The notes beneath the pieces were generated by a model, which was not told where the DNA came from, did no database searches, and saw only the letters and a program-made list of their open reading frames with translations. The position numbers and the translations under genes were made by a program. 38,413 bases of DNA from Klenkia terrae (GTDB lineage Bacteria > Actinomycetota > Actinomycetes > Mycobacteriales > Geodermatophilaceae), in assembly GCF_900491935.1 (NCBI RefSeq), contig NZ_UEXK01000004.1, positions 578,966-617,378 on the forward strand. Direction: 5' to 3'. Below, in pieces: positions 772-27,577 of this stretch. Every line of letters starts with the position of its first letter. Position 1 is the stretch's first letter.

Positions 772-1536
772 TCAGGCGCTGCCGAAGCGGCGTTGGCGGG
801 AGGCGTACTCCTCGCAGGCGGCCCAGAGGTTGCGGCGGTCGAAGTCCGGCCCCAGCACGTCCTGGAACACCAGCTCGGCGTAGGCGGACTGCCAGAGCAG
901 GAAGTTCGAGGTCCGGTTCTCCCCCGAGCTGCGCAGGAACAGGTCGACGTCGGGCATGTCGGGCTCGTCGAGGACCCGGGCCACGGTCTTCTCGGTGATC
1001 TTGCCGGGGTTCAGCCGGCCGGCGGCGCCCTCGCGACCGATCGCCGCGGCGGCGTGGGCGATCTCGGCCCGCCCGCCGTAGTTCACGCACATGGTCAGGG
1101 TGAGGACGTCGTTGTCCTGCGTCAGCTCCTCGGCGACCTCGAGCTCCTTGATCACCGAGCCCCACAGTCGCGGACGGCGCCCGGCCCAGCGCACCCGCAC
1201 GCCCAGCTCGTGCATCTCGTCGCGGCGGCGGCGGATCACGTCGCGGTTGAAGCCCATGAGGAAGCGGACCTCCTCCGGGCTGCGCTTCCAGTTCTCGGTG
1301 GAGAACGCGTAGGCGCTGATCGCGCCGATGCCCAGCTCGATGGCGCCCTCGACGCAGTCGAACAGCGAGGCCTCGCCGGCCTCGTGGCCCTTGGTGCGGG
1401 GCAGCCCGCGCTGCTTGGCCCACCGCCCGTTGCCGTCCATGACCACGGCGACGTGGTGCGGCACCTTGTCCGCCGGGATGGCCGGGGGCCGGGCGCCGGA
1501 GGCGTGCGGGGTGGGCGGCCGGACGGCGCGCCTCAC
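772..1536 (-). CDS. uppS: Isoprenyl (undecaprenyl/decaprenyl) diphosphate synthase
   Basis: Cis-prenyltransferase that condenses isopentenyl diphosphates to make the C50/C55 lipid carrier for peptidoglycan and glycan precursors. The 254-residue protein has the family start motif MDGNGRWA at residues 33-40 with catalytic Asp34, then the conserved [12 protein letters not shown] and the C-terminal [19 protein letters not shown] substrate-binding segment. The GTG at 1536 overlaps the recO stop as GTGA, which fixes the start and implies translational coupling. It sits downstream of era-recO as in Mycobacterium, where the neighbour of recO (Rv2361c) makes decaprenyl diphosphate. Chain length cannot be read from this sequence. 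Confidence 0.95.
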
Positions 1537-2282
1537 GAGCGGTCCACCAGGGACAGCGAGCGCAGCCCGCGCTCCAGGTGCCACTGCAGCAGTGCGGCCA
1601 CGAGCCCGCTCCCCTCGCGTCGGTTGGTGCCCTGGCTGGCCTCGGCGGTGGCCCAGTCGCCGGTGAGCAGGGCCTCCAGCAGCTCCACGGTGACCGGGCT
1701 GGGCAGCGTGGAACCGGTGGGCCGGCAGGCCGGGCAGACCATGCCGCCGCCGGGCACCGAGAAGTGCCGGTGCGGTCCGGGCTCGGCGCAGCGGGCGCAG
1801 TCGGTGAGCGCGGGCTCCCAGCCGGCCACCGACATGGCCCGCAGCAGGAAGGCGTCGAGCACCAGGCCGGGCGGGTGGGTCTGCTCGGCCAGGGACCGCA
1901 ACGCCCCGATGACCAGCAGGAACATCCGCAGCGACGGTTCCTTCTCCTCGGCGGTGAGCCGGTCGGCGGTCTCGAGCACCGCGGTGCCGGCGGTGTAGCA
2001 CCGGTAGTCGGTGACGATGGCCGGGCCGTAGGAGTGCAGGGACTCGGCCTGGCTGACGATGTCGAGGTTGCGGCCGGTGTAGAGCTGCAGGTCGACGTGG
2101 CTGAACGGCTCGAGCCGGGCGCCGAACTTGCTCTTGGTCCGGCGCACGCCCTTGGCCACCGCGCGCACCTTGCCGGTGCGCCGGGTGAGCACGGTGACGA
2201 TCCGGTCGGCCTCGCCGAGCTTCTGCACCCGCAGGACGACGCCCTCGTCGCGGTAGAGGGCCTTCGGGGTGTGCGCCGACAC
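1533..2282 (-). CDS. recO: DNA repair protein RecO
   Basis: Mediator of RecFOR homologous recombination; it helps load RecA on SSB-coated single-stranded DNA. The 249-residue protein has an N-terminal OB-fold region (about residues 10-85, including [20 protein letters not shown]) and a helical C-terminal domain with a four-cysteine zinc site formed by CARC and CPAC near residues 160-185. Length and order are normal for actinobacterial RecO. The GTG at 2282 follows the era TAG stop with no gap and in the same frame, so the two genes are separated by a single UAG codon. The downstream overlap with uppS is GTGA. Confidence 0.95.
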
Positions 2283-3197
2283 CTAGTAGCCCAGCCGCTG
2301 CAGCTTCTTGGGGTCGTCCTGCCACTCCCCCAGCACCGTGACGTGCAGCGACAGGTGCACCCGGCCGCCGAGCAGGTGCTCCAGGCCGACCCGGGCCTCG
2401 CTGCCGATCGCCTTGATGGTGGCGCCGCCCTTGCCCAGCAGCATCGGCTTCTGGCTGGCCCGCTCGCAGTGCAGCAGGACGTGCAGCTCGGTGAAGACGG
2501 CCTCGGGGTCGCGGGGGTCGGGCTTGCGGATGATCTCCTCGACGCTGACGGCCAGCGAGTGCGGCACCTCCTGGCGCACCTTCTCCAGCGCGGCCTCGCG
2601 GACCAGCTCGGCGATCTGCCGCTCGAGGTCGTCGTCGGTGAGCTGGTCCTCCGGGTACATCGGCGGGCCCTCGGGCAGCATGCCGACCAGCAACTCCGCG
2701 AGCAGGTCGACCTGCTCGTCGGCCACGGCGCTCACCGGCACCACCTCGCGGGCCTCGACCAGCTGGGAGGCCGCGATCAGCTGCGCGGTGATCGCCTTCT
2801 TCGACGCCACGTCGGTCTTGGTGACCACCAGCACCACCGGGGTGCTCACGTTCTTCAGCTGCCGGGCGATGAACGCGTCGCCGGCGCCGACGGGCTGGTC
2901 GGCCGGGATGCAGAACACGATGACGTCGACGTCGGCCAGGGTGTCGCGGACGACGTCGTTGAGCCGCTGGCCCAGCAGGCTCTTGGGCTTGTGCAGGCCG
3001 GGGGTGTCGACCAGCACCAGCTGGCCGTCGGGCCGGTGCACGACGCCGCGGATCGCGTGCCGCGTGGTCTGCGGCCGGTTGCTGACGATGCCGACCTTGT
3101 CGCCCACCAGGCGGTTGGTGAGCGTGGTCTTGCCCGCGTTGGGGCGCCCGACCAGCGCGACGAAGCCGCTGCGGTACGGGGCATCAGGGGTGCTCAC
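2283..3197 (-). CDS. era: GTPase Era
   Basis: Ribosome-associated GTPase needed for 16S rRNA maturation and 30S assembly. Visible G motifs: [10 protein letters not shown] (G1), PQTTRH (G2), DTPGL (G3), TKTD (G4) and SAV (G5). The C-terminal KH RNA-binding domain includes [15 protein letters not shown] and ends in KKLQRLGY. I place the start at the GTG at 3197 (304 aa) because GGGAGG lies 9 nt upstream of it; the in-frame ATG at 3206 abuts that same Shine-Dalgarno with no spacing and is less likely. The stop is TAG, directly followed by the recO GTG. Order relative to recO and uppS is the conserved actinobacterial one. Confidence 0.95.
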
Positions 3198-3245
3198 GCC
3201 GACCATCCTCCCACCGCCCACCGACACCGCGGGGACGACGGCTGG

Positions 3246-3251
3246 GACGAT
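3246..3251 (+). promoter_or_regulatory. Possible -10 element of a leaderless transcript
   Basis: GACGAT lies 6 nt before the ATG at 3258, and no Shine-Dalgarno is present. The spacing would place the transcript start at or next to the start codon. This is one of several such elements in the window; the identical hexamer and spacing precede the small ORF at 21012. Confidence 0.4.
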
Positions 3252-3257
3252 GGCGCC

Positions 3258-3854
3258 ATGGCCCGCCGAACCCGACGCCCGAACGACGAGCCGCCCGCGG
3301 TCCGCGCCGCCCGCGACCGGGAGCGGCACATCAGCCAGGTCACCAGCTACGGGTTCTTCGCCCGCCGCGGCCCCAAGCGGTCGGTCACCGTCGTCCCGGC
3401 GCCGCTGCGGTACTGGCAGTACGTGGCGGTGAGCCCCGGCATCGCGCTGGCCACCGTGGCCGCCGTCGTCGTCTGGCTGCTGGCGCTGGGGCTGATCAGC
3501 GGCTGGCCGGCCGCGCAGGACGAGGTCCCGCTGGCCGTCGGCCTGGGCGCCGCCGTGCTGGTCCTGGCCACCAGCCGGTTCACCATCTCGGACTTCGCGG
3601 TGTCCAACGACATCGCCGGGCTGCGCCAGACATCGTCGTTCGGCGTCGTCCCGCTGGTGCTCGTCGAGGACGTCGTCGTCGGCCGTGCCCCGGCGGACTG
3701 GCCGCGGGCCAAGCGGCGCGGTGGCTGGTGGCCCGGGCGCACGCGCGTCGTCGTGCGGCACCTGGCCGCCGACGGCGTGGCCGACCGGGCCTTCGCCATC
3801 TGGGTCCGGGACCCCGAGGCCGTCGCCGACGCCCTGGACCGACCGCTGGCCTGA
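3258..3854 (+). CDS. Two-helix membrane protein, unknown function
   Basis: 198 residues. The first ~55 are polar and basic. Two hydrophobic helices follow at about residues 58-80 (PGIALATVAAVVVWLLALGL) and 92-108, then a ~90-residue soluble domain with alternating hydrophobic strands (SFGVVPLVLVEDVVVGR, RTRVVVRHLAADGVADRAFAIWV). That layout recalls bacterial proteins with a PH-like domain after paired helices, such as DUF3093-type actinobacterial proteins, but I cannot confirm the family. It is divergent from era and followed after 4 nt by a GNAT acetyltransferase, so the two are probably co-transcribed. The start is set by the ATG with a -10-like GACGAT six bases upstream. Confidence 0.75.
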   Translation: MARRTRRPNDEPPAVRAARDRERHISQVTSYGFFARRGPKRSVTVVPAPLRYWQYVAVSPGIALATVAAVVVWLLALGLISGWPAAQDEVPLAVGLGAAVLVLATSRFTISDFAVSNDIAGLRQTSSFGVVPLVLVEDVVVGRAPADWPRAKRRGGWWPGRTRVVVRHLAADGVADRAFAIWVRDPEAVADALDRPLA

Positions 3855-3858
3855 CCGC

Positions 3859-4329
3859 GTGACCCTCCCCCCGGTCGAGCTCGGCGCGTTCCCGCGGGAA
3901 CGCGCCGGGGAGCTGCTCACGCTGCAGCGCGCGGCCTACGTCACCGAGGCGCAGCTCTACGGCGACGCGCGGCTGCCGGCGCTGACTGAGACGCTGCCGG
4001 AGCTGTTGGCCGAGCTGGCCGGGTCCGCGTGCCTGGCCGCCTGGCACGGCCCGCGCCTGGTCGGCGCCGTGCGCAGCCGGGAGGTCGACGGCGTCCTGCA
4101 CATCGGGAGGCTGGTCGTCGCCCCGGACCTGCAGGGGCACGGCATCGGCAGCCGGCTCCTGGCCGCGGCCGAGGGAACCTCCGGGTGTGCGACGGCGACG
4201 TTGTTCACCGGGCACCTCAGCGAGGCCAACCTCCGGCTCTACCGGCGGCGCGGCTACGTCGAGACCCACCGCGAGCAGCTGTCGCCGGCGGTCGAGCTCG
4301 TGCACCTCACCAAAGACCTCGCCCGCTGA
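3859..4329 (+). CDS. GNAT-family N-acetyltransferase
   Basis: 156-residue protein of the Gcn5-related acetyltransferase fold, which transfers an acetyl group from acetyl-CoA to an amine. The acetyl-CoA binding motif is clear: IGRLVVAPDLQGHGIGSRLL (Q-G-x-G-I-G-S) near residues 82-101, followed by the typical late motif SEANLRLYRRRGYVE. The GTG at 3859 lies 4 nt after the preceding gene, suggesting a bicistronic unit. The substrate cannot be inferred. Downstream is a strong hairpin (4353-4387) before the convergent minus-strand operon. Confidence 0.85.
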   Translation: MTLPPVELGAFPRERAGELLTLQRAAYVTEAQLYGDARLPALTETLPELLAELAGSACLAAWHGPRLVGAVRSREVDGVLHIGRLVVAPDLQGHGIGSRLLAAAEGTSGCATATLFTGHLSEANLRLYRRRGYVETHREQLSPAVELVHLTKDLAR

Positions 4330-4352
4330 CCCGGGGCAGCTCCGCCGGGGTG

Positions 4353-4387
4353 GGGGGAGGTCCGGCGCCGGCCGCGGACCATCCCCC
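4353..4387. terminator. Hairpin between convergent genes, probable bidirectional terminator
   Basis: GGTCCG at 4359-4364 pairs with CGGACC at 4375-4380; the stem continues with A-T (one bulged A) and five G-C pairs (4353-4357 with 4383-4387). The loop is 10 nt. No T-tract follows, which is common in high-GC actinobacteria. The motif CGGACCATCC recurs just downstream around 4395, as a short direct repeat. The whole 87-nt gap 4330-4416 holds nothing else I can see. Confidence 0.55.
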
Positions 4388-4416
4388 AGCTGGGCGGACC
4401 ATCCTCGGCCGGCGGG

Positions 4417-4749
4417 TCAGACGGTGGTGACCAGGGTGCCGTCGGGGCCGGCCAGGTGGACCGGTGCGCCCGCGGTGAGGTCGTGGACGGCGGCCAGGCC
4501 GGCGGGCTCCACCGCACCGGCACCGCTGACCACCGCGGCCGCCTCCAGGCCCTCGACGCCCGAGGACACCGCGGCGGCGACGGCCGCCTGCAGGGCCGAG
4601 AGCTGCAGCGAGGGCAGCGCGACGGTGGCGGCCAGGTAGGTCCGCCCGTCGGTGTCGCGGACGGCGGCCCCCTCCGGCGCCCCGGTGCGGCCGCGGGCCG
4701 AGCGGGCGAGGGTGACGAGCTTCTGGTCCTCGGGCTGCAGGTCGGTCAC
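4417..4749 (-). CDS. Cytidine deaminase-like protein lacking zinc ligands
   Basis: 110 residues. The position between CNNM and era matches Mycobacterium Rv2365c and similar small proteins often labelled cytidine deaminase. The N-terminal half follows the deaminase layout (LVTLARSARGR, then GAAVRDTDGRTYLAATVALPSL), but where a deaminase has the zinc motif C/H-A-E this protein reads LSALQAA, and there is no PCxxC; the protein contains no cysteine at all. It therefore cannot be a conventional zinc deaminase. The GTG at 4749 overlaps the CNNM stop as GTGA, so it is translationally coupled. It may be a retained fold with a binding or structural role near Era; that is inference. Confidence 0.8.
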   Translation of the reverse strand: MTDLQPEDQKLVTLARSARGRTGAPEGAAVRDTDGRTYLAATVALPSLQLSALQAAVAAAVSSGVEGLEAAAVVSGAGAVEPAGLAAVHDLTAGAPVHLAGPDGTLVTTV

Positions 4750-6188
4750 GACGACAGCCTCCCAGCCGCGTCGGCGTCGACGTCCTCGGGCTCCGCGGCG
4801 GCCGCCGCGGCCTCCTTCTTCTCCCGCTTGCGCCGGGCCCGCCGCTCGGCGCGCTCCTCGTCCTCGGGCTCGGTCGCCGGGGCGGGCTCCTCGACCTCGG
4901 CCTCCTCGGCGTCGGCGGGCTCCTCCACCCGGCGGACCAGCATGGTGTCGATCTGGTTGCGCCGTCCGCCGGTCCGCTCGGCCAGCAGGTGCAGCTCGCC
5001 GACCACGGTCTCCGAGCCCTCGATCGGCACCCGGCCGATCGCCCGCGCCAGCAGCCCGCCGACGGTCTCCACGTCGTCGTCCTGCGGCAGCTCGACCCGG
5101 AACAGGTCGGCCAGGTCCTCGACCGGCAACCGCGCGGTGATCCGGTAGGACCCGTCGGGCAGCTCCTCAACCGGGGGGCGCTGCACGGCGTCGTGCTCGT
5201 CGTCGATCTCGCCGACGATCTCCTCGAGGATGTCCTCGATGGTCAGCAGGCCGGCGAAGCCGCCGTACTCGTCGACCACGACGGCCATGTGGATGCGGCG
5301 GGCCTGCATGTCCCGCAGCAGGGCGTCGACCGGCTTGGACTCGGGCACGAAGGCCGCGGGCCGCATGAGGTCCTCGACCCGGATCCGGCTGACGTCCTGG
5401 TCGCCCTGGGTCCGCCGGACCAGGTCCTTGAGGTAGACGACGCCGACGATGTCGTCGGCGTTCTCCCCGATCACCGGGATCCGGCTGAACCCGCTGCGCA
5501 GGGCCAGCGCCAGCGCCTGCCGCAGGCTCTTGGTCGACTCGACGAACACCACGTCGGGCCGGGGCACCATGACCTCGCGGGCGATCGTGTCGCCCAGGGA
5601 GAACACCGACTGGATCATGTCGCGCTCGTCGGACTCGACGACGCCGCGCTCCTCGGCCATGTCGACCAGCTCGCGCAGCTCGACCTCGGTGGAGAACGGC
5701 CCCTCGCGGAACCCCCGGCCGGGGGTGATGGCGTTGCCCAGCAGGATCAGCAGCGTCGACACCGGGCCCAGCAACCGGCCGAGCAACCGGGTCGGACCGG
5801 CCGCGGCCAGCGCGATCGCGTAGGCGTGCTGCCGGCCCAGGGTCCGCGGTCCGACGCCGACCAGCACGTAGCTGATCACCGTGGTCACCGCCGCAGCCGT
5901 GACCACGCCGGCCCCGACGCCGTCGAACTGGGCGTAGAGGATCACGCCGATCAGCACCGCGGCGGTCATCTCGCAGGCGATCCGCAGCAGGAGCAGCAGC
6001 GAGACGTGCCGGGCGCGGTCCTCGACGACCTCCAGCAGCGCGCCGGCCCGGCGGACGTCGTCGCGGCGCAGGGCCTCGACCCGCGCGCGGGAGATGCCCT
6101 GCAGCGCGGCGTCGACGGCGGCGAACACCCCGGCGAGCGGGACCAGCAGGACGGCGATCACCAGGAGCGTGATCGCGGTGGAGCTCAT
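4746..6188 (-). CDS. CNNM/CorC-type hemolysin-family protein (DUF21-CBS-CorC)
   Basis: 480-residue membrane protein. The N-terminal DUF21 domain has about four hydrophobic segments (residues 5-28, 60-80, 88-110 and 125-150). A cytosolic CBS pair follows at about 205-325 ([63 protein letters not shown]), then a CorC_HlyC domain (about 345-420). Relatives bind Mg-ATP and are linked to Mg/Co ion homeostasis. The last ~60 residues are Glu/Ala/Lys/Arg-rich and charged, beyond the usual family end. The ATG at 6188 overlaps the ybeY stop (ATGA), and the stop overlaps the next gene (GTGA). Order phoH-ybeY-CNNM is conserved in actinobacteria. Confidence 0.9.
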
Positions 6189-12602: not shown

Positions 12603-13208
12603 CTAGAGCCAGCCCTTGTCGGCGGCGACCCGGGCGGCCTCGACGCGGGTGCGGGCGCCGGTCTTGCCGATGGCGTTGGACAGGTAGTTGCGCACCGTGC
12701 CCTCGGAGAGGAACAGCCGCCCGGCGATGTCGGCCACGGTGGCGCCGTCGGCAGCGGCCCGCAGCACGTCGGCCTCCCGGGCCGAGAGCGGGGTCGCGCC
12801 CAGGGCGAGGGCAGCGGCGGCGAGGTCCCGGTCGATGACCCGCTCCCCCGCCATCACCGACCGGATCGCGGCGGCCAGCTCGGCGACCGGTGAGTCCTTG
12901 ACCAGGAACCCGGCCGCGCCGACCTCCATCGCCCGGCGCAGGAACCCCGGCCGGCCGAACGTGGTGAGGATGACGGCCTTCACGGTCGGCAGCTCGGCCG
13001 CCAGGTCGCGGGCGGCCTCGATCCCGTCCTGGCCCGGCATCTCGATGTCCATCAGCGCGACGTCCGGCACGTGCTCCCGGGCGGCGGCCAGCACCTCGTC
13101 GCCGCGGCCCACCTCGGCCACGACGGTGATGTCCTCCTCCAGCTCGAGCAGCGCCCGCAGCGCGCCCCGGACCAGCTGCTGGTCCTCGGCGAGCAGCACC
13201 CGGATCAC
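12603..13208 (-). CDS. Two-component response regulator, NarL/LuxR family
   Basis: 201-residue transcription factor. The receiver domain (1-120) has the acidic pair in LLAEDQQLVR, the phospho-acceptor Asp in DVALMDIEMPGQDG, switch residue Thr in LTTF and Lys in FLVKDSP. The C-terminal LuxR-type helix-turn-helix (about 138-198) reads PLSAREADVLRAAADG and LFLSEGTVRNYLSNAIGKTG. The GTG at 13208 overlaps the kinase stop as GTGA, so kinase and regulator are made together, upstream of which lies an ABC exporter. It probably controls that exporter, as in DesKR/LiaRS-like modules. Its stop codon is TAG. Confidence 0.93.
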   Translation of the reverse strand: MIRVLLAEDQQLVRGALRALLELEEDITVVAEVGRGDEVLAAAREHVPDVALMDIEMPGQDGIEAARDLAAELPTVKAVILTTFGRPGFLRRAMEVGAAGFLVKDSPVAELAAAIRSVMAGERVIDRDLAAAALALGATPLSAREADVLRAAADGATVADIAGRLFLSEGTVRNYLSNAIGKTGARTRVEAARVAADKGWL

Positions 13209-14317
13209 GCGACCACCGCCGCGGCCGGCACCAGCGGGACCTCGGCGTGCAGCCGGTAGCCGCCGCCGGGGGCCGCACCCCCGGTGAGGGACCCGTCGAC
13301 GGCGGTCACCCGCTCGCGCAGCCCGGTCAGCCCGGAGCCGGGCGCGGTGTCCTCGGCCGGTCCGCGGCCGTCGTCCACGACGGTGAGCGCGGCGCAGACG
13401 CCGTCCTCGGTGAGCGTGACCGTCACCGTGCGGGCGTGGCTGTGCCGCAGCACGTTCGTGGTCGCCTCGCGGACCACCCAGCCCAGCGCGGCGTCCACCG
13501 GACCGGGGAGGACGGGCAGCCGGTCGGGGCCGCGGAAGGCGATGCCGGCGCCGGACAGCGCGGCCCGGGCCTCGGCCACCGCCTGGCCGCAGCTGACCTG
13601 CCGGTACCCGCTGACCGCCTCCCGGACCTCGGCCAGGGCGCGGCGGGCAGCGGCCTCGACGTCGGCCATCTCCGCCCCCGCCCGCTCCACGTCGACCGGG
13701 GCGAGCCGGCGGGCCAGCTCGCTCTTGAGCGCGATGAGCGACAGCGAGTGGCCCAGCAGGTCGTGCAGGTCCCGGGCGAAGCGCAGCCGCTCCTCGGCGA
13801 CGGCGTTGCGGGCCAGCTCCTCGCGGGCCTCCCGCAGCTCGGCGTTGACGGTGATCAGGTGCCGGGTGCCCCACAGCGTCGCCGCGGTCAGCGGGCACAG
13901 CACGGGCAGGAACAGCGACGTCCAGTCCTGCCAGGAGAGGACGACGACCAGGCAGGCCAGCGTGGCCGCACCGGCCACCGGCCAGACCAGCTTCTCGGAC
14001 AGGGTGGCGGCCGCCGCGGCCGACACGTAGATCCACAACCCGGCGTAGCTGGTGCCCAGCGCCGCCGAGAGCACCAGGGCCAGGACGACGACCACCACGA
14101 AGTCCGGCCGCACGCCGCGGGCCTCGGCGAACCGGCCCAGCACGCCGAGGTAGGCCACCGTGAACACGACGAGCGCGGCCGCGATGACCAGCCGGGCCGC
14201 GAGCGGGCGGGGCGTGAGCACCAGGTCCAGCACCGGGAAGACCTGGAACACCAGCCACGGCGCGGACCAGGCCAGCCGTCGCCACAGGGGCGGTCGCGTG
14301 ACGGGGACGGGCTCCAC
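13205..14317 (-). CDS. Two-component sensor histidine kinase (HisKA_3 family)
   Basis: About 370 residues. The N-terminal half has four to five hydrophobic helices (about residues 15-145) with little extracellular sequence, typical of kinases that sense the membrane itself. The dimerisation box is RFARDLHDLLGHSLSLIALK, where the first His is the phosphorylation site. The HATPase domain shows REATTNVLRHSHA (N box), VVDDGRGP (G1) and GSGLTGLRERV (G2). The start is uncertain: I use the GTG at 14317, 17 nt beyond the permease stop, but no good Shine-Dalgarno fixes it. It is coupled to the regulator downstream by GTGA. Confidence 0.9.
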   Translation of the reverse strand: MEPVPVTRPPLWRRLAWSAPWLVFQVFPVLDLVLTPRPLAARLVIAAALVVFTVAYLGVLGRFAEARGVRPDFVVVVVLALVLSAALGTSYAGLWIYVSAAAAATLSEKLVWPVAGAATLACLVVVLSWQDWTSLFLPVLCPLTAATLWGTRHLITVNAELREAREELARNAVAEERLRFARDLHDLLGHSLSLIALKSELARRLAPVDVERAGAEMADVEAAARRALAEVREAVSGYRQVSCGQAVAEARAALSGAGIAFRGPDRLPVLPGPVDAALGWVVREATTNVLRHSHARTVTVTLTEDGVCAALTVVDDGRGPAEDTAPGSGLTGLRERVTAVDGSLTGGAAPGGGYRLHAEVPLVPAAAVVA

Positions 14318-14334
14318 GGGGGTCAGTGTCCCGC

Positions 14335-15078
14335 TCAGCCGGCGACCGCGTGCAGCGGGCGCCGCGCGCCCACCCCGACCGCGGCCACCGCGAACAGCGC
14401 GGCGAAGCCGACCAGCACGACCGCGGCCATCGCCGGGCTCCCGCCGGTGACCACGTCGCGGCCGAGCTCGCCGTACCAGTAGGACGGCATCGCCCGGGCC
14501 ACCACCTGCAGCCCGTCGGGGAAGATCCAGACCGGGATCCACAGCCCGCCCAGGGCCGCGAGCACCACCGAGAGGATGCCGATGGCGGCGCCGGCGGCCT
14601 TCTCCTCCAGCGCCAGGCCCAGCAGCATGCCCAGCGCCACGAACGCCGCCGACCCCAGCCACAGGACGCCGAGCAGCGTCGCCCAGGTGCCGATGCCCAG
14701 CTGGACGTCGTTGACGAAGCGGCCGACCAACGCGACGACGACCAGGCTGGGCAGCACGAGCACCATGCCGACCGCGACGTCCACGGCGACCACCGTGCGC
14801 CCGGGGAGCGGGAGCACCCGCAGCTGGCGCAACCAGCCCGACGCCCGGTCGAACGACAGCCGGATGGTGGCGCCCAGCGCCGCCCCCAGCCCGCCGTAGC
14901 ACATCATCGAGACCATGTAGTCCTGCGCGTACTCCTGGTACTCCCCCGGGCTGGCCGCCTGCCCGCCGAAGATCTTGGTGAAGAAGACGGTGAACAGCGC
15001 GGGCAGCAGGACGGTGAAGAACAGGTACTGCCAGGAGCGCAGCACCCGGCGGAGCTGGAAGACGAACAGGGCGGTCAT
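14335..15078 (-). CDS. ABC-2 type transporter permease
   Basis: 247-residue integral membrane protein with about six helices, beginning with a short cytoplasmic stretch (FQLRRVLRSWQYLFFTVLLP). An extracytoplasmic loop around residues 38-55 (GGQAASPGEYQEYAQDY) and the late segment GGLWIPVWIFPDGLQVVARAMPSYWYGEL match ABC-2 permeases such as NodJ/DrrB. The ATG at 15078 overlaps the ATPase stop (ATGA), making an obligate pair. With the downstream kinase and regulator it forms a four-gene self-regulated export module; likely substrates are lipids, peptides or drugs, which the sequence does not decide. Confidence 0.92.
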   Translation of the reverse strand: MTALFVFQLRRVLRSWQYLFFTVLLPALFTVFFTKIFGGQAASPGEYQEYAQDYMVSMMCYGGLGAALGATIRLSFDRASGWLRQLRVLPLPGRTVVAVDVAVGMVLVLPSLVVVALVGRFVNDVQLGIGTWATLLGVLWLGSAAFVALGMLLGLALEEKAAGAAIGILSVVLAALGGLWIPVWIFPDGLQVVARAMPSYWYGELGRDVVTGGSPAMAAVVLVGFAALFAVAAVGVGARRPLHAVAG

Positions 15079-21165: not shown

Positions 21166-21660
21166 TCAGCCCGGCGTGCGCACCAGGTACCGCACGGCCT
21201 CCTGCTCGTCGTGCTGGACGCCGTCGTGGTCCACCCAGGTGTAGGAGTCCACGTAGCGCAGCCCGGTGTCGGCGAACCCGAGCCGCAGGTACAGCCGGGC
21301 GGCGTCCGGGTTGTCCTCGTCCACGCCGATGCCGACGCTCGCCTGCCCGGCGGCCGCGGCCCGGGCGCAGGCGGCGGCCACCAGCGCGGTGCCGTGGCCC
21401 CGGCCCTGCTCGTCGGGGTGCACCTGCAGGTTGCTGATCTCGGGCAGCGCGCCGAACCGCTCCCGGACGGCCGCGTCCCGGGGTGCCCAGCGCAGCACCC
21501 CGGCGCCCACCGGCCGGCCACCGACCTCGGCGACCAGCAGCACGCACGCTCCCTCGGCCTGCATCCCCAGCAGCCCGGCGTAGACCCCGGGCGGTGCGCC
21601 GAGGGCGTCGTCCAGCGCGGCCGCCTCGCCGTCCACCGCCGTCCGGACGACGGCCCTCAC
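21166..21660 (-). CDS. GNAT-family N-acetyltransferase coupled to selB
   Basis: 164-residue acetyltransferase. The acetyl-CoA motif is ISNLQVHPDEQGRGHGTALV (Q-G-R-G-H-G), followed by GIGVDEDNPDAARLYLRLGFADTG. The N-terminus [21 protein letters not shown] is unlike the other GNAT in the window. Its GTG at 21660 overlaps the selB stop as GTGA, so it is the third cistron of selA-selB-GNAT. Whether it has a selenium-related role or is simply a passenger is unknown; I know of no established GNAT in bacterial selenocysteine synthesis. Confidence 0.88.
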   Translation of the reverse strand: MRAVVRTAVDGEAAALDDALGAPPGVYAGLLGMQAEGACVLLVAEVGGRPVGAGVLRWAPRDAAVRERFGALPEISNLQVHPDEQGRGHGTALVAAACARAAAAGQASVGIGVDEDNPDAARLYLRLGFADTGLRYVDSYTWVDHDGVQHDEQEAVRYLVRTPG

Positions 21661-23384
21661 CGCATCCGCCGGGTCCGGTCGGGCAGCGCGACGGTGACCC
21701 CGCGGGCGTCCAGCCACTCGGCCAGCGGGACGGCGACCCGCCGCGAGGTGCGCCAGGCCTGCCGCGCCTGGCTCAGCGTGAACGGCTGCGGCAGCCCGGC
21801 CAGCGCCCGCCGGGCCCGGTCCTCGACGCCGGGGGCCAGCACCACGCCCTCGGCGATCTTGACCAGCTGACCGTCCCGGACGGCGGCGGCGAGCTCGCGC
21901 GGACCCAGGCCGGCGGCGGCCAGCGCCTCGGTGTCCGGCGCGGCGAACGGGTCCGCGGCCAGCGCGGCCAGCACCCCGGTGACCGCCCGCTGCACCGGCT
22001 CGGGCAGACCGCTGTCGGCGGCCACCACCCGGCCGTCGCGCAGCGTCAGCGGGGCGCGCACCAGCCCGGCGACCAGCTCGGCGTCGGGCAGCTCCAGCGC
22101 GCTGCGCAGCACGGCGACCGGCGGGCCCGACTCCAGCGGCCGCAGCTGCCGGTACCGGGCGACGACGGCGGGCACGCGCGCCGACAGCTCGTCGGCGAGA
22201 CCCGGTGCCAGCAGCCAGCGGCCGACCGTCGTCGCGCCGGTCGGGACCGGCCACCCCATGGCCGCGAACTCCTCGAGCAGCACCAAGCGGCGCCGGGCGA
22301 GGTCGGCGGCGGCGTCCCACCCGGCGTCCAGGTCGGCGGCGCGCGCCCGGGCCGCACCCCGGCGACGCAGCTGCGGGGGATCGACGTCGCGGACGTCGGC
22401 GCCGTGCACCCGCCGGGCCCCCGGGTCGCGCAGGATGAGCCGGTCGCCGACCCGCACCGGCAACGGGTGCGCCAGCCGCAGGCGCAGCGCGGCGTCGTCC
22501 AACGGCCGGACCCGGGCGGCCACCGTGGCCGAGCCGACGTGCACGACCAGCTCGGCCGGCAGCCTGCCCTCGACCGGGTGCACCAGGACGACGTCGAGCT
22601 CGGCGGTGCTGCGGAAGGCGCCCGGGGTGAGCAGCGCGTCCCCCCGGGACAGGTCCTCCACCGCCGTGCCGCGCAGGTTGAGCGCCACCCGGGCCGTCGC
22701 GGCCGCCTGCTCCACCGGCTCGCCCAGGGAGTGCAGGCCGCGGACGACGACCTCCCGGCCGGCCAGGGTGAACCGGTCGCCGGTGCGCACGATGCCCGCG
22801 GCCAGCGTCCCGGTGACCACGGTGCCGGCACCGCGGATGGTGAAGGCCCGGTCCACCCACAGCCGGACCGGCGCCGCGGTGTCCGGGGCGGGCAGCCCGG
22901 CCAGCAGCTCCTCGAGCGCTGCGGCGACCGCGGGCACGCCGTCCCCGGTCCGGGAGCTGGCGGCCACGCCCGGGACGACGCCCATCGAGGTCTCGGCCAG
23001 CCGCTCGGTGACGTCGGCGAGCACCGGCCCGGGGTCGGCCAGGTCGGACTTGGTGACCACCAGCAGCGCGTCCCGGACGCCGAGGGCGTCCAGCACCGCG
23101 ACGTGCTCGGCGGTCTGCGCGGACCAGCCGTCGTCGGCTGCGACCACGACCAGCGCGGCGGGCACCGAGCCGACGCCGGCGAGCATGGTGCCGACGAACT
23201 TCTCGTGCCCGGGGACGTCGACCACGGCCACCACCCGGCCGCCGGGCAGCGTCGTCCAGGCGAACCCCAGGTCGATCGTGAGCCCGCGGCGGCGCTCCTC
23301 CTCCAGCCGGTCGGGCTGCATCCCGGTCAGGGCGGTCACCAGCGAGGACTTGCCGTGGTCGACGTGCCCCGCGGTGGCGATCAC
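21657..23384 (-). CDS. selB: Selenocysteine-specific translation elongation factor SelB
   Basis: 575-residue GTPase that carries Sec-tRNA to the ribosome and binds the SECIS hairpin in selenoprotein mRNA. G motifs: [12 protein letters not shown] at the N-terminus, [10 protein letters not shown] (switch I), DVPGHEKFV (G3) and TKSDL (G4). EF-Tu-like beta-barrels follow, then a ~240-residue C-terminal region consistent with the SECIS-binding winged helices (for example [38 protein letters not shown]). I use the GTG at 23384, which overlaps the selA stop as GTGA and gives the usual [11 protein letters not shown] start; a GTG at 23390 is possible. The partner tRNA here has a CUA anticodon, so this SelB should work at UAG. 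Confidence 0.95.
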
Positions 23385-24661
23385 CTGCACGCGCGGACCG
23401 CCTGGACCAGCGCGTCGTCGTCGGCCGGGTCCAGGCTGCGCAGGTCCAGCAGCGTGCGGCCGTCGGCGACGTACCCGACCACCGGGGGCGTGCCGTGCCG
23501 CAGCGGCTCGGCCAGCCGTGCCGGCAGGGACACCGCGGCGCTGGGCAGCTCGAACTCCGGCGCTCCCCCGCCGCCGACCCGGGCCCCGGAGTCCACCACG
23601 TGCGCATCGCCGCCGAGCGCGGCGACGACGGCGCCCGCGCGGGACCGCAGCTCCTCGACCGACGCGGCGAGCATGCGCTGCACCGGCGGCTGCGGACCCC
23701 GCAGGGTGGCCTCCAGCGCGGCCAGGGTCGTCTTGTCGACCCGGAGCGCGCGGTAGAGCGGGTGCCGGCGCAGCCGCTGGACGAGAGCGGCGGATCCCAG
23801 CACGAGGCCGGCCTGCGGGCCGCCGAGCAGCTTGTCCCCGCTGCACAGCACCAGGTCGGCCCCGGCGGCGAGGGTGGACTGCAGGTCGGGCTCGTCCGGC
23901 AGCGCAGGGTGCGGGGCGAGCAGGCCGGAGCCGATGTCGGCCACCACCGGGACGTCGACCGCGGCGGCCAGCTCGGCGACCTCGACGGACCGGGTGAACC
24001 CGCGCACCACGAAGTTCGACGGGTGGATCTTCAGCACGGCCCCGGTGTCCGGGCCGATCGCGTCGGTGTAGTCGGCCAGGGCGACCCGGTTCGTCGTCCC
24101 CACCTCGCGCAGGCGGGCGCCGGTGGACACCAGCAGGTCCGGGATCCGGAAGCCGTCCCCGATCTCGACGAGCTCACCGCGGGCGACCACCAGCTCGCCG
24201 CCCAGGCAGGTGGCGACCAGCGCGAGCGCCGCCGCGCAGTTGTTCACCACGATCGCCGCCTCGGCGGCCGGGACGGCGGCCAGCAGCGCCTCGATCGCGC
24301 CCTCCCCGCGGGGGCCGCGCCGACCGGTGGCCAGGTCCAGCTCGACGTCGGTGGTGCCGCTGGCCGCGACCACGGCGTCGACCGCGGCCGGCGACCAGGG
24401 CGCCCGGCCGAGGTTGGTGTGCACCAGCACCCCGGTCGCGTTCAGCACCCGGCGCAGCGAGGAGGCGCTCACCGGCAGCGCGGCCACCACGGCGTCGGCG
24501 GCGTCCTCGGGCGGCACGTCACCGGACCGCACCGACCGCTGGACGTCCTGCACCACGGTCTTCACCAGGTCGCGGCCCAGCCGCTGCGCGCCGGCGGCGA
24601 CCCGCGGGTCGGCCAGGAGGACGTCGGTGCGCGGCACGAGGCGTCGGGGGTCGGTCGTCAT
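23381..24661 (-). CDS. selA: L-seryl-tRNA(Sec) selenium transferase
   Basis: 426-residue pyridoxal-phosphate enzyme that converts seryl-tRNA(Sec) to selenocysteinyl-tRNA(Sec) using selenophosphate. The PLP lysine is near residue 276 in [16 protein letters not shown]. The N-terminal tRNA-binding region ends [20 protein letters not shown], another family hallmark, and [10 protein letters not shown] precedes the PLP site. The ATG at 24661 has a TACGCT hexamer 8 nt upstream, so the transcript may be nearly leaderless. selB is coupled by GTGA. Length and motifs are complete, so the gene looks functional. Confidence 0.96.
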
Positions 24662-24692: not shown

Positions 24693-25226
24693 CTACCTGC
24701 GCACGCGGAACCGGAGCAGGGTGACCGGGCCCTCCTGCGAGACGTGGAAGGGCTCCAGCTCGACGCGGGCGGCACCCGGGGGCGAGAAGCGCACGCCGTC
24801 CCCGAGCAGCACCGGGAGCAGGTAGACCAGCACCTCGTCGACCAGTCCCTGCCGCAGGCACTGGGCCGCGAGGTCGGCGCCGAGCACCTCGACGTCCTTC
24901 CCGCCGGCGGCGGCGCGCACGGTCTGCAGGGCGTCGGGCAGGTCGTCGGTGAGGTAGGTGACCCCGGCCTGCGGGTCGTCGGGCACGCGGTGGGTCAGCA
25001 CGAACACGGGCCCGCCGTCGTAGGCGGTGTCCTCGGGGGACATCGCGCGGGCGACGTCGTGCGTGCGCCGGCCGACCAGCATCGCCCCGGTCGCGGCGGC
25101 CACCTCGGGGAACGGGTCGTCGCGGAAGTACCCGTGGACCCAGCTCATGTCGTCGCCGGGTCCGGCGACGAAGCCGTCCAGCGACATCGACCTGTTGACC
25201 ACGACCTTGCCCCGGGGTTCGTCCAC
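24693..25226 (-). CDS. Dihydrofolate reductase / RibD C-terminal-like protein
   Basis: 177-residue protein of the RibD C-terminal/DHFR-like fold. The start VVVNRSMSLDGFVAGPGDDMSWV is the family signature, followed by AMLVGRRTHDVA (NADPH-binding region), VFVLTHRVP, VEVLGADLAAQCLRQGLVDEVLVYLLPVLLGDGVRF. Such proteins are NAD(P)H-dependent reductases of mostly unknown substrate, common as stand-alone genes in actinobacteria. It lies between selA and the tRNA-Sec gene in the same direction; a link to selenium is not established. The GTG at 25226 starts the gene and the stop is TAG. Confidence 0.88.
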   Translation of the reverse strand: MDEPRGKVVVNRSMSLDGFVAGPGDDMSWVHGYFRDDPFPEVAAATGAMLVGRRTHDVARAMSPEDTAYDGGPVFVLTHRVPDDPQAGVTYLTDDLPDALQTVRAAAGGKDVEVLGADLAAQCLRQGLVDEVLVYLLPVLLGDGVRFSPPGAARVELEPFHVSQEGPVTLLRFRVRR

Positions 25227-25270: not shown

Positions 25271-25366
25271 TGGCGGAGGCGGACGGGAATCGAACCCGCC
25301 TGACCCGGTTGCCGGGCCACGTCGGCTTTAGAGGCCGCGGGGGTCACCAGACACCCTGACGCCTCC
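25271..25366 (-). tRNA. selC: tRNA-Sec with CUA anticodon
   Basis: 96-nt tRNA on the minus strand, 5' GGAGGCG at 25366, encoded 3' GCCA at 25271. The acceptor pairs GGAGGCG with CGCCTCC, and the eighth position is T opposite C. The D arm includes GGGT/ACCC. The anticodon arm is CGGC-CTCTAAA-GCCG, so the anticodon is CUA (25329-25331), with T33 and A37 in place. A 7-bp variable arm GGCCCGG-CAA-CCGGGTC and the T arm GCGGG-TTCGATT-CCCGT complete the selenocysteine-type architecture. Bacterial tRNA-Sec normally has loop CTTCAAA (UCA); here TCA is replaced by CTA, so it should read UAG. selA, selB and selD around it support identity; gene finders may label it a suppressor tRNA or miss it. Confidence 0.93.
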
Positions 25367-25387: not shown

Positions 25388-26484
25388 TCACCCGGTCAGC
25401 ACGGCGGCGGCCCCGGCACCGGCCAGCGCCACCACGGCGACCACCCCGGTCGTGCCGGCCAGCAGCCGCGCGGGGAAGACGTGCCGGACCATCAGCAGCG
25501 AGGGCAGGCTGAGCACCGGCAGGGTCACCAGCAGCACGGCCGCGGCCGGTGCGCCCAGCCCCGCGGCCAGCGCGGCGGCGACCACGGCGACCTCGCCGCC
25601 GGTGGGCACCGGCAGGGCCAGCCCGGCGACCAGCAGGAGCAGCAGCACCGCGACGGCGGCCCACCCGCTGCCGCCGTCGGCCGGGAAGAGCACCCCGCGG
25701 AAGGTGCCGAGCACGAACACCACGGCCAGGTACTCCGGCAGCAACCGCACGGCGAGGCCAGCGAGCACGGCGCCGAACCGCACCAGGACCGGCCGGGTGT
25801 CCGGCTCGGGCTCGGGCACGTCGGCCGGCACGGTCTCCGCGACCGCACGGCGGCGGCCCAGCCACCCGGCGAGGCCGACCGCGGCCACCACGACCAGCAG
25901 GCCGGCGCCGAACCGCAGCACCGCCCACGGCCAGGGCAGCACGGCCAGGCAGAAGACCAGCACCACCGGGTTCAGCGCCGGGTTGCCCAGCCAGAACGCG
26001 AGCACGGCGCTGGTGCTGGCCTTCGCCCGGCGCAGGCCGACGGCCAGCGGGGCCGCGCAGCACGAGCACATCAGCGTGGGCACCGAGGCCAGTCCCCGCG
26101 CAGGCCGCCGCGGGCCGTGCCGGCGTCCGACGATCCCAGCACCCGGCGCAGCCAGGTCGCCGGCAGCAGCACCTGGACGGCGGCGGCCAGCACCAGGCCG
26201 ACGACCAGGGCCTTCCAGATCGCCGCCGTGTAGGCGACCGTGAAGTCCCAGCCGGCCGCCAGGGACACCGCCGGTGCCGCCTCGCCGCCGCCGGTGACGA
26301 TGGAGTCGCCGAGGTCGTGGCTGCCCAGCACCGCGGGCACCTTGCCGCTGTACGGGCCGTACTTGGCCCACCAGAGCCCGCCGACCAGCAGGACGACGGC
26401 CAACCCGCCCAGCAGCACCAGCCGCCGGCGGCCCGGTCCGGGCACCTCCGTGGTCGTCGGTGCCTGCCCGGTGGTGCTCGCCAT
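25388..26484 (-). pseudogene. ArsP/DUF318-type permease, single-base frameshift
   Basis: The two halves of a ~365-residue permease lie in different frames. The N-terminal half starts at the ATG at 26484 (GAGGA five bases upstream), has helices in RRLVLLGGLAVVLLVGGLWW and AIWKALVVGLVLAAAVQVLL, and runs WLRRVLGSSDAGTARGGLRGD before a TGA at 26071. The C-terminal half continues in another frame as GLASVPTLMCSCCAAPLAVG and AFWLGNPALNPVVLVF, both hallmarks of the ArsP_1 (PF03773) permeases. One extra G in the GGGG run at 26094-26097 would join them as RGGLRGGLASVPTLMCSCC. So it is a pseudogene, a sequencing error in a homopolymer, or a programmed frameshift. It sits between tRNA-Sec and selD. Confidence 0.8.
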
Positions 26485-26566
26485 GCCGTCCTCGCCGCCC
26501 GTCCCGCTCGCCGTCCGCTGCCCTCCCGATCCTGCCGGACCCGGCCGGTTCCGGTTGACTGGACCG

Positions 26567-27577
26567 GTGACTGCTGCCCGGTCCGACGCCGTCCGCCTGA
26601 CCACCTACGCCCACGGCGGCGGGTGCGCCTGCAAGATCCCGCCGGGTGAGCTGGAGGCCGTCGTCGCCGGGCTCACGCACACCGGCCCGCGCGACCCGGC
26701 CACCGAGCTGGTCGTCGGTCTGGACGACGGCGACGACGCCGCGGTCGTCCGCCTGCCCGGTGGCCAGGGCCTGGTGCTGACGACGGACTTCTTCACCCCG
26801 GTCGTGGACGACGCCTACGACTTCGGGCGGATCGCCGCGGCCAACGCGCTGTCCGACGTCTACGCCATGGGCGGCACCCCGGTGGTCGCGGTGAACCTGC
26901 TGGGCTGGCCGCGGGACGTGCTGCCCGCCGAGCTCGCGGCCGAGGTGCTGCGCGGCGGGCTGGAGGTCGCGCACGCGGCCGGCTGCCACGTCGGCGGCGG
27001 GCACTCCATCGACTCCCCCGAGCCCACCTACGGCATGGCGGTGACCGGGCTGGTCGACCTGGATCGGCTGATCCGCAACGACGCCGCCGTGGCCGGGGAC
27101 GCGATCTCGCTGACCAAGCCGCTGGGCGTGGGCACGCTGAACAACCGGATGAAGGCCACCGGCGAGCCCTCGCCCGAGGCCATCGACTCGATGACCCGGC
27201 TGAACGCGGAGGCGTCGGTGGCCGCGGTCGCCGCGGGCATCCGGGCCGGCACCGACGTCACCGGCTTCGGGCTGCTGGGCCACCTCTACAAGATGGCCCG
27301 GGCCAGCGGCGTCACCGCGGTGGTCAGCGCGGCCGACGTCCCGTACCTGGCGGGCGCGCGGCAGGCGGTCGCCGACGGCTACGTCTCCGGCGGCACCCGG
27401 CGCAACCTGGACTGGGTGCGGCCGCACACCGACCTGTCCGCGGCCAGCGAGGACGACGCGCTGCTGCTGGCCGACGCGCAGACCTCGGGCGGGCTGCTGC
27501 TGGCCGGCGAGGTGCCCGGCGCCCCGGTGGTCGGCGAGTTCGTGGCCGCCGGGGAGTTCGCCGTCGTCGTCCGGTAG
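26567..27577 (+). CDS. selD: Selenide, water dikinase (selenophosphate synthetase)
   Basis: 336-residue enzyme that makes selenophosphate from selenide and ATP, the selenium donor for SelA. The catalytic site reads YAHGGGCACKIPPGEL with Cys20 and Lys23, equivalent to E. coli Cys17/Lys20, so this SelD is the Cys form, not a selenoprotein. Other family segments: GDDAAVVRL, TTDFFTPVVDDAYDFGRIAAANALSDVYAMGG, HVGGGHSID, SLTKPLGVGTLNNRM and TDVTGFGLLGHLYKMA. The GTG at 26567 is 82 nt from the divergent permease gene; TTGACT six bases upstream of it may be a weak -10. The stop is TAG, followed in frame by TGC-TCG-CGG-TGA. Confidence 0.95.
   Translation: MTAARSDAVRLTTYAHGGGCACKIPPGELEAVVAGLTHTGPRDPATELVVGLDDGDDAAVVRLPGGQGLVLTTDFFTPVVDDAYDFGRIAAANALSDVYAMGGTPVVAVNLLGWPRDVLPAELAAEVLRGGLEVAHAAGCHVGGGHSIDSPEPTYGMAVTGLVDLDRLIRNDAAVAGDAISLTKPLGVGTLNNRMKATGEPSPEAIDSMTRLNAEASVAAVAAGIRAGTDVTGFGLLGHLYKMARASGVTAVVSAADVPYLAGARQAVADGYVSGGTRRNLDWVRPHTDLSAASEDDALLLADAQTSGGLLLAGEVPGAPVVGEFVAAGEFAVVVR

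Follow-up and report, generated by a model that had tools for sequence, protein, structure and literature searches.

A tRNA-Sec with anticodon CUA at the sel locus of Klenkia terrae and the probable use of UAG as a selenocysteine codon in Geodermatophilaceae

The window, which here means the whole analysed stretch of 38,413 nucleotides of Klenkia terrae DNA, contained a tRNA gene accompanied by selA, selB and selD. The features of the locus were as follows.

21657..23387, minus strand: selB, selenocysteine-specific elongation factor, start codon approximate (TIGR00475, 267.9 bits, cut-off 242.25)
23381..24661, minus strand: selA, L-seryl-tRNA(Sec) selenium transferase (TIGR00474, 416 bits, cut-off 267.9)
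24693..25226, minus strand: RibD_C-domain gene between selC and selA, 177 aa, ordinary TAG stop (PF01872, 66.4 bits)
25271..25366, minus strand: selC, tRNA-Sec(CUA), long variable arm, encoded G73-CCA (ARAGORN, Rfam, folding)
25329..25331, minus strand: anticodon CUA of selC, pairing with UAG, in the loop CTCTAAA (sequence, ARAGORN)
26240..27577, plus strand: selD, selenide, water dikinase, ordinary TAG stop (TIGR00476, 383.5 bits)

The only tRNA detected in the window by ARAGORN was located at 25271-25366 on the minus strand, with the anticodon cta and the label tRNA-Pyl. The tRNA-Sec model RF01852 was matched by cmscan at 25275-25366 over its full length (model positions 1-91) with 68 bits and an E value of 5.6e-12, the cut-off being 47 bits. 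The anticodon CTA was found at 25331-25329, and G73 and CCA were encoded at 25274-25271. The folding energy of selC was -53 kcal/mol (z -3.44), which was reached by none of 200 shuffled sequences, and a search pattern for CUA tRNA-Sec gave one match in the window compared with a mean of 0.00 in shuffles. In this way, selC agreed with the bacterial tRNA-Sec model except for the anticodon, which was CUA instead of the canonical UCA, and it was therefore regarded as an anticodon variant of tRNA-Sec, as published for Geodermatophilaceae.

The products of selA, selB and selD all scored above the NCBIfam cut-offs. The selB product contained the winged-helix domain PF09107 (SelB-wing_3), the domain by which SelB binds the SECIS hairpin, and the conserved part of the selD ORF began at about residue 119. 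The original prediction, made from the DNA letters, had placed a CUA tRNA-Sec at 25271-25366 with selA, selB and selD around it and had proposed a covariance-model search; the full-length RF01852 match above the cut-off, the ARAGORN anticodon and the protein family scores confirmed it. The RibD_C-like gene separating selC from selA was absent from that prediction. It had no counterpart in the four compared loci of the Klenkia clade (G076, G077, G078 and G080), where selA lay within tens of bases of the tRNA.

The Klenkia terrae genome (4.8 Mb, 23 contigs, 99.98% complete) was then considered as a whole. The tRNA-Sec model hit 16 places at E values up to 10, two of them over the cut-off, and the second of these (48.3 bits) was rejected as a tRNA-Sec since ARAGORN identified it as tRNA-Ser(UGA). 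A UCA tRNA-Sec was sought across this 99.98% complete genome and was not found, leaving the CUA copy as the sole tRNA-Sec found. Among five molybdopterin-enzyme matches, one contained an internal stop, which was a TAG. This was FdhA, encoded elsewhere in the genome than the window, in which the in-frame TAG occupied the selenocysteine site (ENQARI(TAG)HSATVPG). Read through the TAG, the protein matched NF041513 with 1900 bits and the FDH-N alpha family TIGR01553 with 921.7 bits, which identified it as FDH-N type, and the gene was terminated by TGA. Neither UGSC nor WAxxUGC proteins were matched in the Klenkia terrae genome, none of its eight AhpC/TSA matches had an internal stop, and its single match to the AhpD query was stop-free. 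No TGA selenoprotein was found among the families tried, namely molybdopterin/FDH, FDH-H-like, UGSC, AhpD, AhpC/TSA and WAxxUGC. As FdhA was the single UAG selenoprotein found, the case for the Klenkia terrae genome by itself depended on this protein.

Codon use at ordinary gene ends was also evaluated. Of 28 gene-like ORFs selected by their codon composition, 25 ended in TGA, three (selD included) in TAG and none in TAA. Since TAG still ended ordinary genes, the decoding of UAG must depend on context, and the codon was not reassigned throughout. In Klenkia terrae, UAG is recoded in context and is still a stop in ordinary genes.

The hairpin behind the fdhA TAG of Klenkia terrae (GGTGCCC-GGTCT-GGGTGCC) began 11 nt past the codon. 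Its energy was ordinary, with a z of 0.04 and 97 of 200 shuffles folding as well, and it was outcompeted by other folds when longer stretches were folded. Covariation was determined in 13 distinct sequences, including 12 from Geodermatophilaceae with TAG and one plasmid gene with TGA. In this set 98.9% of the cells were paired, seven cells were changed on both sides and the covariation score was 0.293; none of 500 shuffles attained the paired percentage, the number of double-changed cells or the score, and slid versions of the hairpin were all lower. Two cruder measures were unremarkable, as the number of pairs with both sides changed was attained in 73 of 500 shuffles and that of further pair types in 67 of 500. 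The SECIS-like hairpin was thus recognized by its position and covariation, while the folding energy alone was not significant. The prediction that selenoproteins of this organism carry UAG at the Sec codon was upheld by FdhA, and the hairpin it had proposed to look for was present and covaried among relatives, its energy being ordinary. The two findings that it had named as contrary to it, a UCA tRNA-Sec and selenoprotein genes with TGA, were those sought above and not found.

The distribution of anticodon and codon was revealed in 112 Geodermatophilaceae genomes. A tRNA-Sec was detected in 108 of them, and the four genomes without one were only 72-82% complete. The anticodon was read in all 108: CUA was present in 101, 75 of these identified through the search pattern, and only UCA in seven, all from the genera g6, g7 and g8. 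Both anticodons occurred together in one genome, that of Geodermatophilus sp. LHW52908 (G059). Two CUA copies were observed in the fragmented genome G037 (contigs C168 and C25), which is perhaps a strain mixture.

FdhA gave 123 matches in 100 of the 112 genomes, and exactly one TAG was contained in 118 matches (98 genomes); the remaining five consisted of four pieces of the broken genes of G080 and a fragment from G034 that started past the site. In all 30 fdhA loci where the codon was read directly, the Sec site held TAG. The frame past the TAG was open and conserved; over a stretch of 347 aa around this codon, identity within the genus was as high as 94%. In G080, both fdhA copies (C12:812500-817500 and C4:1-5000) had lost the TAG and the hairpin with a frameshift and shared a common right-hand junction. 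The CUA tRNA of this genome is still present. The state of the two fdhA copies could reflect gene decay, gene conversion or faulty assembly.

Further families were examined in the same genomes. UGSC was matched 94 times, in 54 of the 112 genomes; one TAG was contained in 72 of the matches, 22 were stop-free and none had TGA. It was absent from the nine genomes of the window's genus that were searched. WAxxUGC (NF041054, ResA-like) was found in four of 112 genomes (G078, G058, G031 and G034), and in each of them the U position was occupied by TAG; the hairpin after this TAG was folded in three of them and had the same letters in the fourth. One of these genomes, G078, was the nearest relative of the window by SelA. 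WAxxUGC is a predicted further UAG selenoprotein family, and its name was found in none of the open-access papers among the matches listed. In the UCA genera, an FDH-H-like formate dehydrogenase different from FdhA was found with TGA in the motif SCNRT-TGA-HAPSVVG. This TGA was present in six of six site-spanning matches from five genomes of g7 and g8, three of them read directly; the g6 matches missed the site. The same query in CUA genomes gave no match with an internal stop. A codon-composition search for TGA genes near the tRNA at eight UCA loci found none; the same filter finds the FdhA TAG. The gene order of three compared UCA sel loci was the same as far as the contigs reached, and their SelA was 56-61% identical to that of the window.

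In a SelA tree built on 33 rows, one branch with a support of 100/99 separated the UCA from the CUA sequences, and the SelA of the window grouped with Klenkia brasiliensis in a clade of six rows (100/99). Comparison of these relatives appears to place the anticodon switch within Geodermatophilaceae. The tree was rooted at the midpoint and by itself does not prove the direction of change; UCA, being standard elsewhere, is probably the older state in the family. The window and its genome combined a CUA tRNA with selA, selB and selD, no UCA tRNA found, a TAG selenoprotein and a position in the CUA clade, as in the Geodermatophilaceae UAG system.

Outside the family, the order sample comprised 322 genomes, and the CUA pattern was detected in one of them, a Jatrophihabitans MAG (G230:C194, JAICIE010000194.1, 4845 bases). 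This candidate was rejected, because the aligned parts of 3000 compared bases of the contig showed 82-89% DNA identity to Geodermatophilus telluris and the contig is most likely misbinned. In a scan of named genomes, most matches of the first CUA search pattern were tRNA-Ser D-arms and others and were discarded, and a tRNA-Sec-like gene with CTA was present in at least 26 of 117 stretches among the matches listed. Among the matches listed, all of these CTA stretches were from Geodermatophilaceae, the Jatrophihabitans MAG contig or 'Bacillus sp. AZ43'. The last entry (SPQJ01000003.1, marked UNVERIFIED) carried a CUA tRNA-Sec and a SelA placed among Geodermatophilaceae, and it is likely mislabelled. 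An odd tRNA with anticodon CTA was also seen in a Deltaproteobacteria MAG (JAJFLM010000324.1); by eye it was not a tRNA-Sec.

The genome with both anticodons was analyzed separately. In LHW52908, a tRNA-Sec(UCA) was located on contig C17 at 1169-1263 on the minus strand (81.8 bits). Near it, at 1579-2157 on the plus strand, a 192-aa protein of the peroxidase-related or AhpD kind was encoded (TIGR01926, 112.6 bits), which scored 51.8 bits against the CFYUT family NF041238, below the cut-off of 175. The gene contained an in-frame TGA in a CFYU motif (NRCFY-TGA-MESHAEFL), and the TGA was followed by the hairpin ACGCAGAGTTTCTGCGT. The same hairpin recurred after TGA (CFY-TGA-T) in three genomes of the order (G164, G261 and G419), with a single-base difference in one genome. 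Because the hairpin recurs behind a TGA of the same motif, the TGA of the LHW52908 gene is very likely a Sec codon. No tRNA was found within the 3.5-5 kb read around the AhpD-like genes of these three genomes, and among the 397 genomes of the order sample, LHW52908 was the sole Geodermatophilaceae member with a stop in its match to the AhpD-like protein.

FdhA and UGSC of LHW52908 carried TAG. Between C11 and C17, the two contigs searched, SelA, SelB and SelD were found beside the CUA tRNA on C11 and not on C17, so both tRNAs would depend on a single machinery. The two tRNA-Sec shared the 3' 26 bases and seven of the first nine, as would be expected of tRNAs with a SerRS, SelA and SelB in common. 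The GC content of C17 was 59-65% at 1001-6000 compared with 69-75% from 6 to 15 kb, and beyond 6 kb it was 70-79% in 3-kb steps, the last 133 bases aside. Transposase genes were located at 271-834 and 12804-14456. Contamination as the origin of C17 was rejected, as its stretch 47000-50500 matched every one of the 14 further genomes tested from the genus, with a best identity of 79-85% in each. These results somewhat favour a reading in which LHW52908 decodes Sec from UAG by an inherited CUA tRNA and from UGA by an acquired UCA tRNA, with one machinery for both and the latter tRNA on a mobile cassette, which lies at a contig end and is known from the assembly alone. If true, the UCA tRNA and the AhpD-like gene would together form a mobile selenocysteine cassette of minimal size, which carries its own codon with it into a recoded cell. 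No report of two Sec codons in one organism was found among the listed matches of a literature search covering titles and the openings of abstracts, with few subscription papers.

Taken together, it is highly probable that the sel locus in the window belongs to a Klenkia-like bacterium of the Geodermatophilaceae in which tRNA-Sec reads UAG and inserts Sec where this codon is followed by a hairpin. Serine would be put on the CUA tRNA-Sec and converted on the tRNA to selenocysteine by SelA, which is fed by SelD. SelB would then bring the Sec-tRNA solely to a UAG with a small hairpin about 11 nt downstream, as in fdhA, and UAG elsewhere would remain a stop. As a Sec codon, UAG should compete with RF1. 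For Klenkia terrae, the charging, the delivery by SelB, the competition with RF1 and the real insertion of selenium are what the known pathway would lead one to expect.

That selC encodes a tRNA-Pyl, or a general amber suppressor placing one amino acid at every UAG, is extremely improbable. The ARAGORN label points that way and is due to the CTA, but the tRNA-Sec model was matched over its full length, and selC has a long variable arm, unlike tRNA-Pyl, in which this arm has three nucleotides in the available passages of PMC7609411. In addition, selC lies beside selA, selB and selD, and TAG ends three of 28 gene-like ORFs including selD. Equally hard to credit is a dying tRNA gene with a harmless mutation to CUA and a real stop at the fdhA TAG. 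The tRNA can outlast fdhA, as G080 demonstrated, and four of 112 family genomes had no tRNA-Sec, though at 72-82% completeness. Against this, 101 of the 108 genomes with a tRNA-Sec have retained CUA, the frame past the fdhA TAG is open and conserved, the hairpin shows paired changes, and TAG stands at the Sec codons of UGSC and WAxxUGC too.

The remaining alternative concerns the history of the trait, and it is unlikely, if a little less so than the other two: CUA tRNA-Sec may have arisen many times or move freely, in which case the family pattern would say little about one switch. It could draw on tRNA-Sec with CUA, UAA and sense-codon anticodons known from nature, as given in the accessible text of PMC10778597, and on the one match outside the family in 322 genomes. 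That match, however, was on the contig most likely misbinned, the listed CTA matches of the named scan traced to Geodermatophilaceae, that MAG or the probably mislabelled AZ43, and SelA separated UCA from CUA once (100/99, 33 rows).

The CUA tRNA-Sec in Geodermatophilaceae has already been published, as the original prediction had remarked in calling this locus not a first case, and the window adds a member from the Klenkia clade. Reportedly, 75Se labelling of Geodermatophilus and Blastococcus was done by Mukai et al. in 2016. The accessible part of PMC5330540 describes three Geodermatophilaceae genomes with CUA tRNA-Sec, credited to Mukai et al. 2016, and names FDH, UGSC and AhpC as UAG families; the Klenkia terrae locus therefore belongs to a known kind. 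It shares with the published system the CUA tRNA-Sec, the TAG at the formate dehydrogenase Sec codon and the hairpin, and differs in its clade and in that its own genome showed TAG in FdhA only. AhpC with TAG is known from Blastococcus saxobsidens but was not seen in nine genomes of the window's genus, where the sole TAG match of the AhpC search (G078) was the WAxxUGC protein. According to the accessible part of PMC5330540, some bacteria, Photobacterium profundum 3TCK among them, carry two tRNA-Sec genes in their genome; two different anticodons in one genome are not mentioned there. UAG use is mentioned in the passages seen of PMC8124441 and PMC10778597. Geodermatophilaceae did not come up in a search of the available text of two reviews, PMC13188914 (2026) and PMC9312934 (2022); where the first of these refers to UAG, it deals with engineering and annotation. 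The trait is easily overlooked, since translation by the standard code ends these selenoproteins at UAG and the tRNA is assigned to pyrrolysine by ARAGORN.

Compared with the pyrrolysine system, in which a CUA anticodon likewise reads UAG, the present one has the long variable arm, the sel genes and the hairpin, and UAG is otherwise a stop. tRNA-Sec with other anticodons such as UGU/UGC, known from the accessible text of PMC8124441 and PMC10778597, also shift the Sec codon by the anticodon; here the codon is a stop codon and not a Cys codon. Modules of the form fdh-selD-tRNA-Sec(UCA)-selA-selB were observed on Arthrobacter and Tsukamurella plasmids, one of them typed as conjugative, and the trait may travel. 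Their selD, tRNA, selA and selB have the same order and orientation as in the window, whereas the anticodon is UCA and TGA stands at the same FdhA site, as read in the Tsukamurella gene only. That FdhA was 63% identical over 950 aa, with the TGA at the same codon and a similar hairpin. The family is a natural experiment in which UCA/UGA genera stand beside CUA/UAG genera with the same sel order in those read, and a plasmid-borne FdhA relative with TGA where the Klenkia FdhA has TAG is part of it. It makes it possible to study how a special meaning can pass from one stop codon to another, and LHW52908 with its two tRNAs may be a living case of both Sec codons at once.
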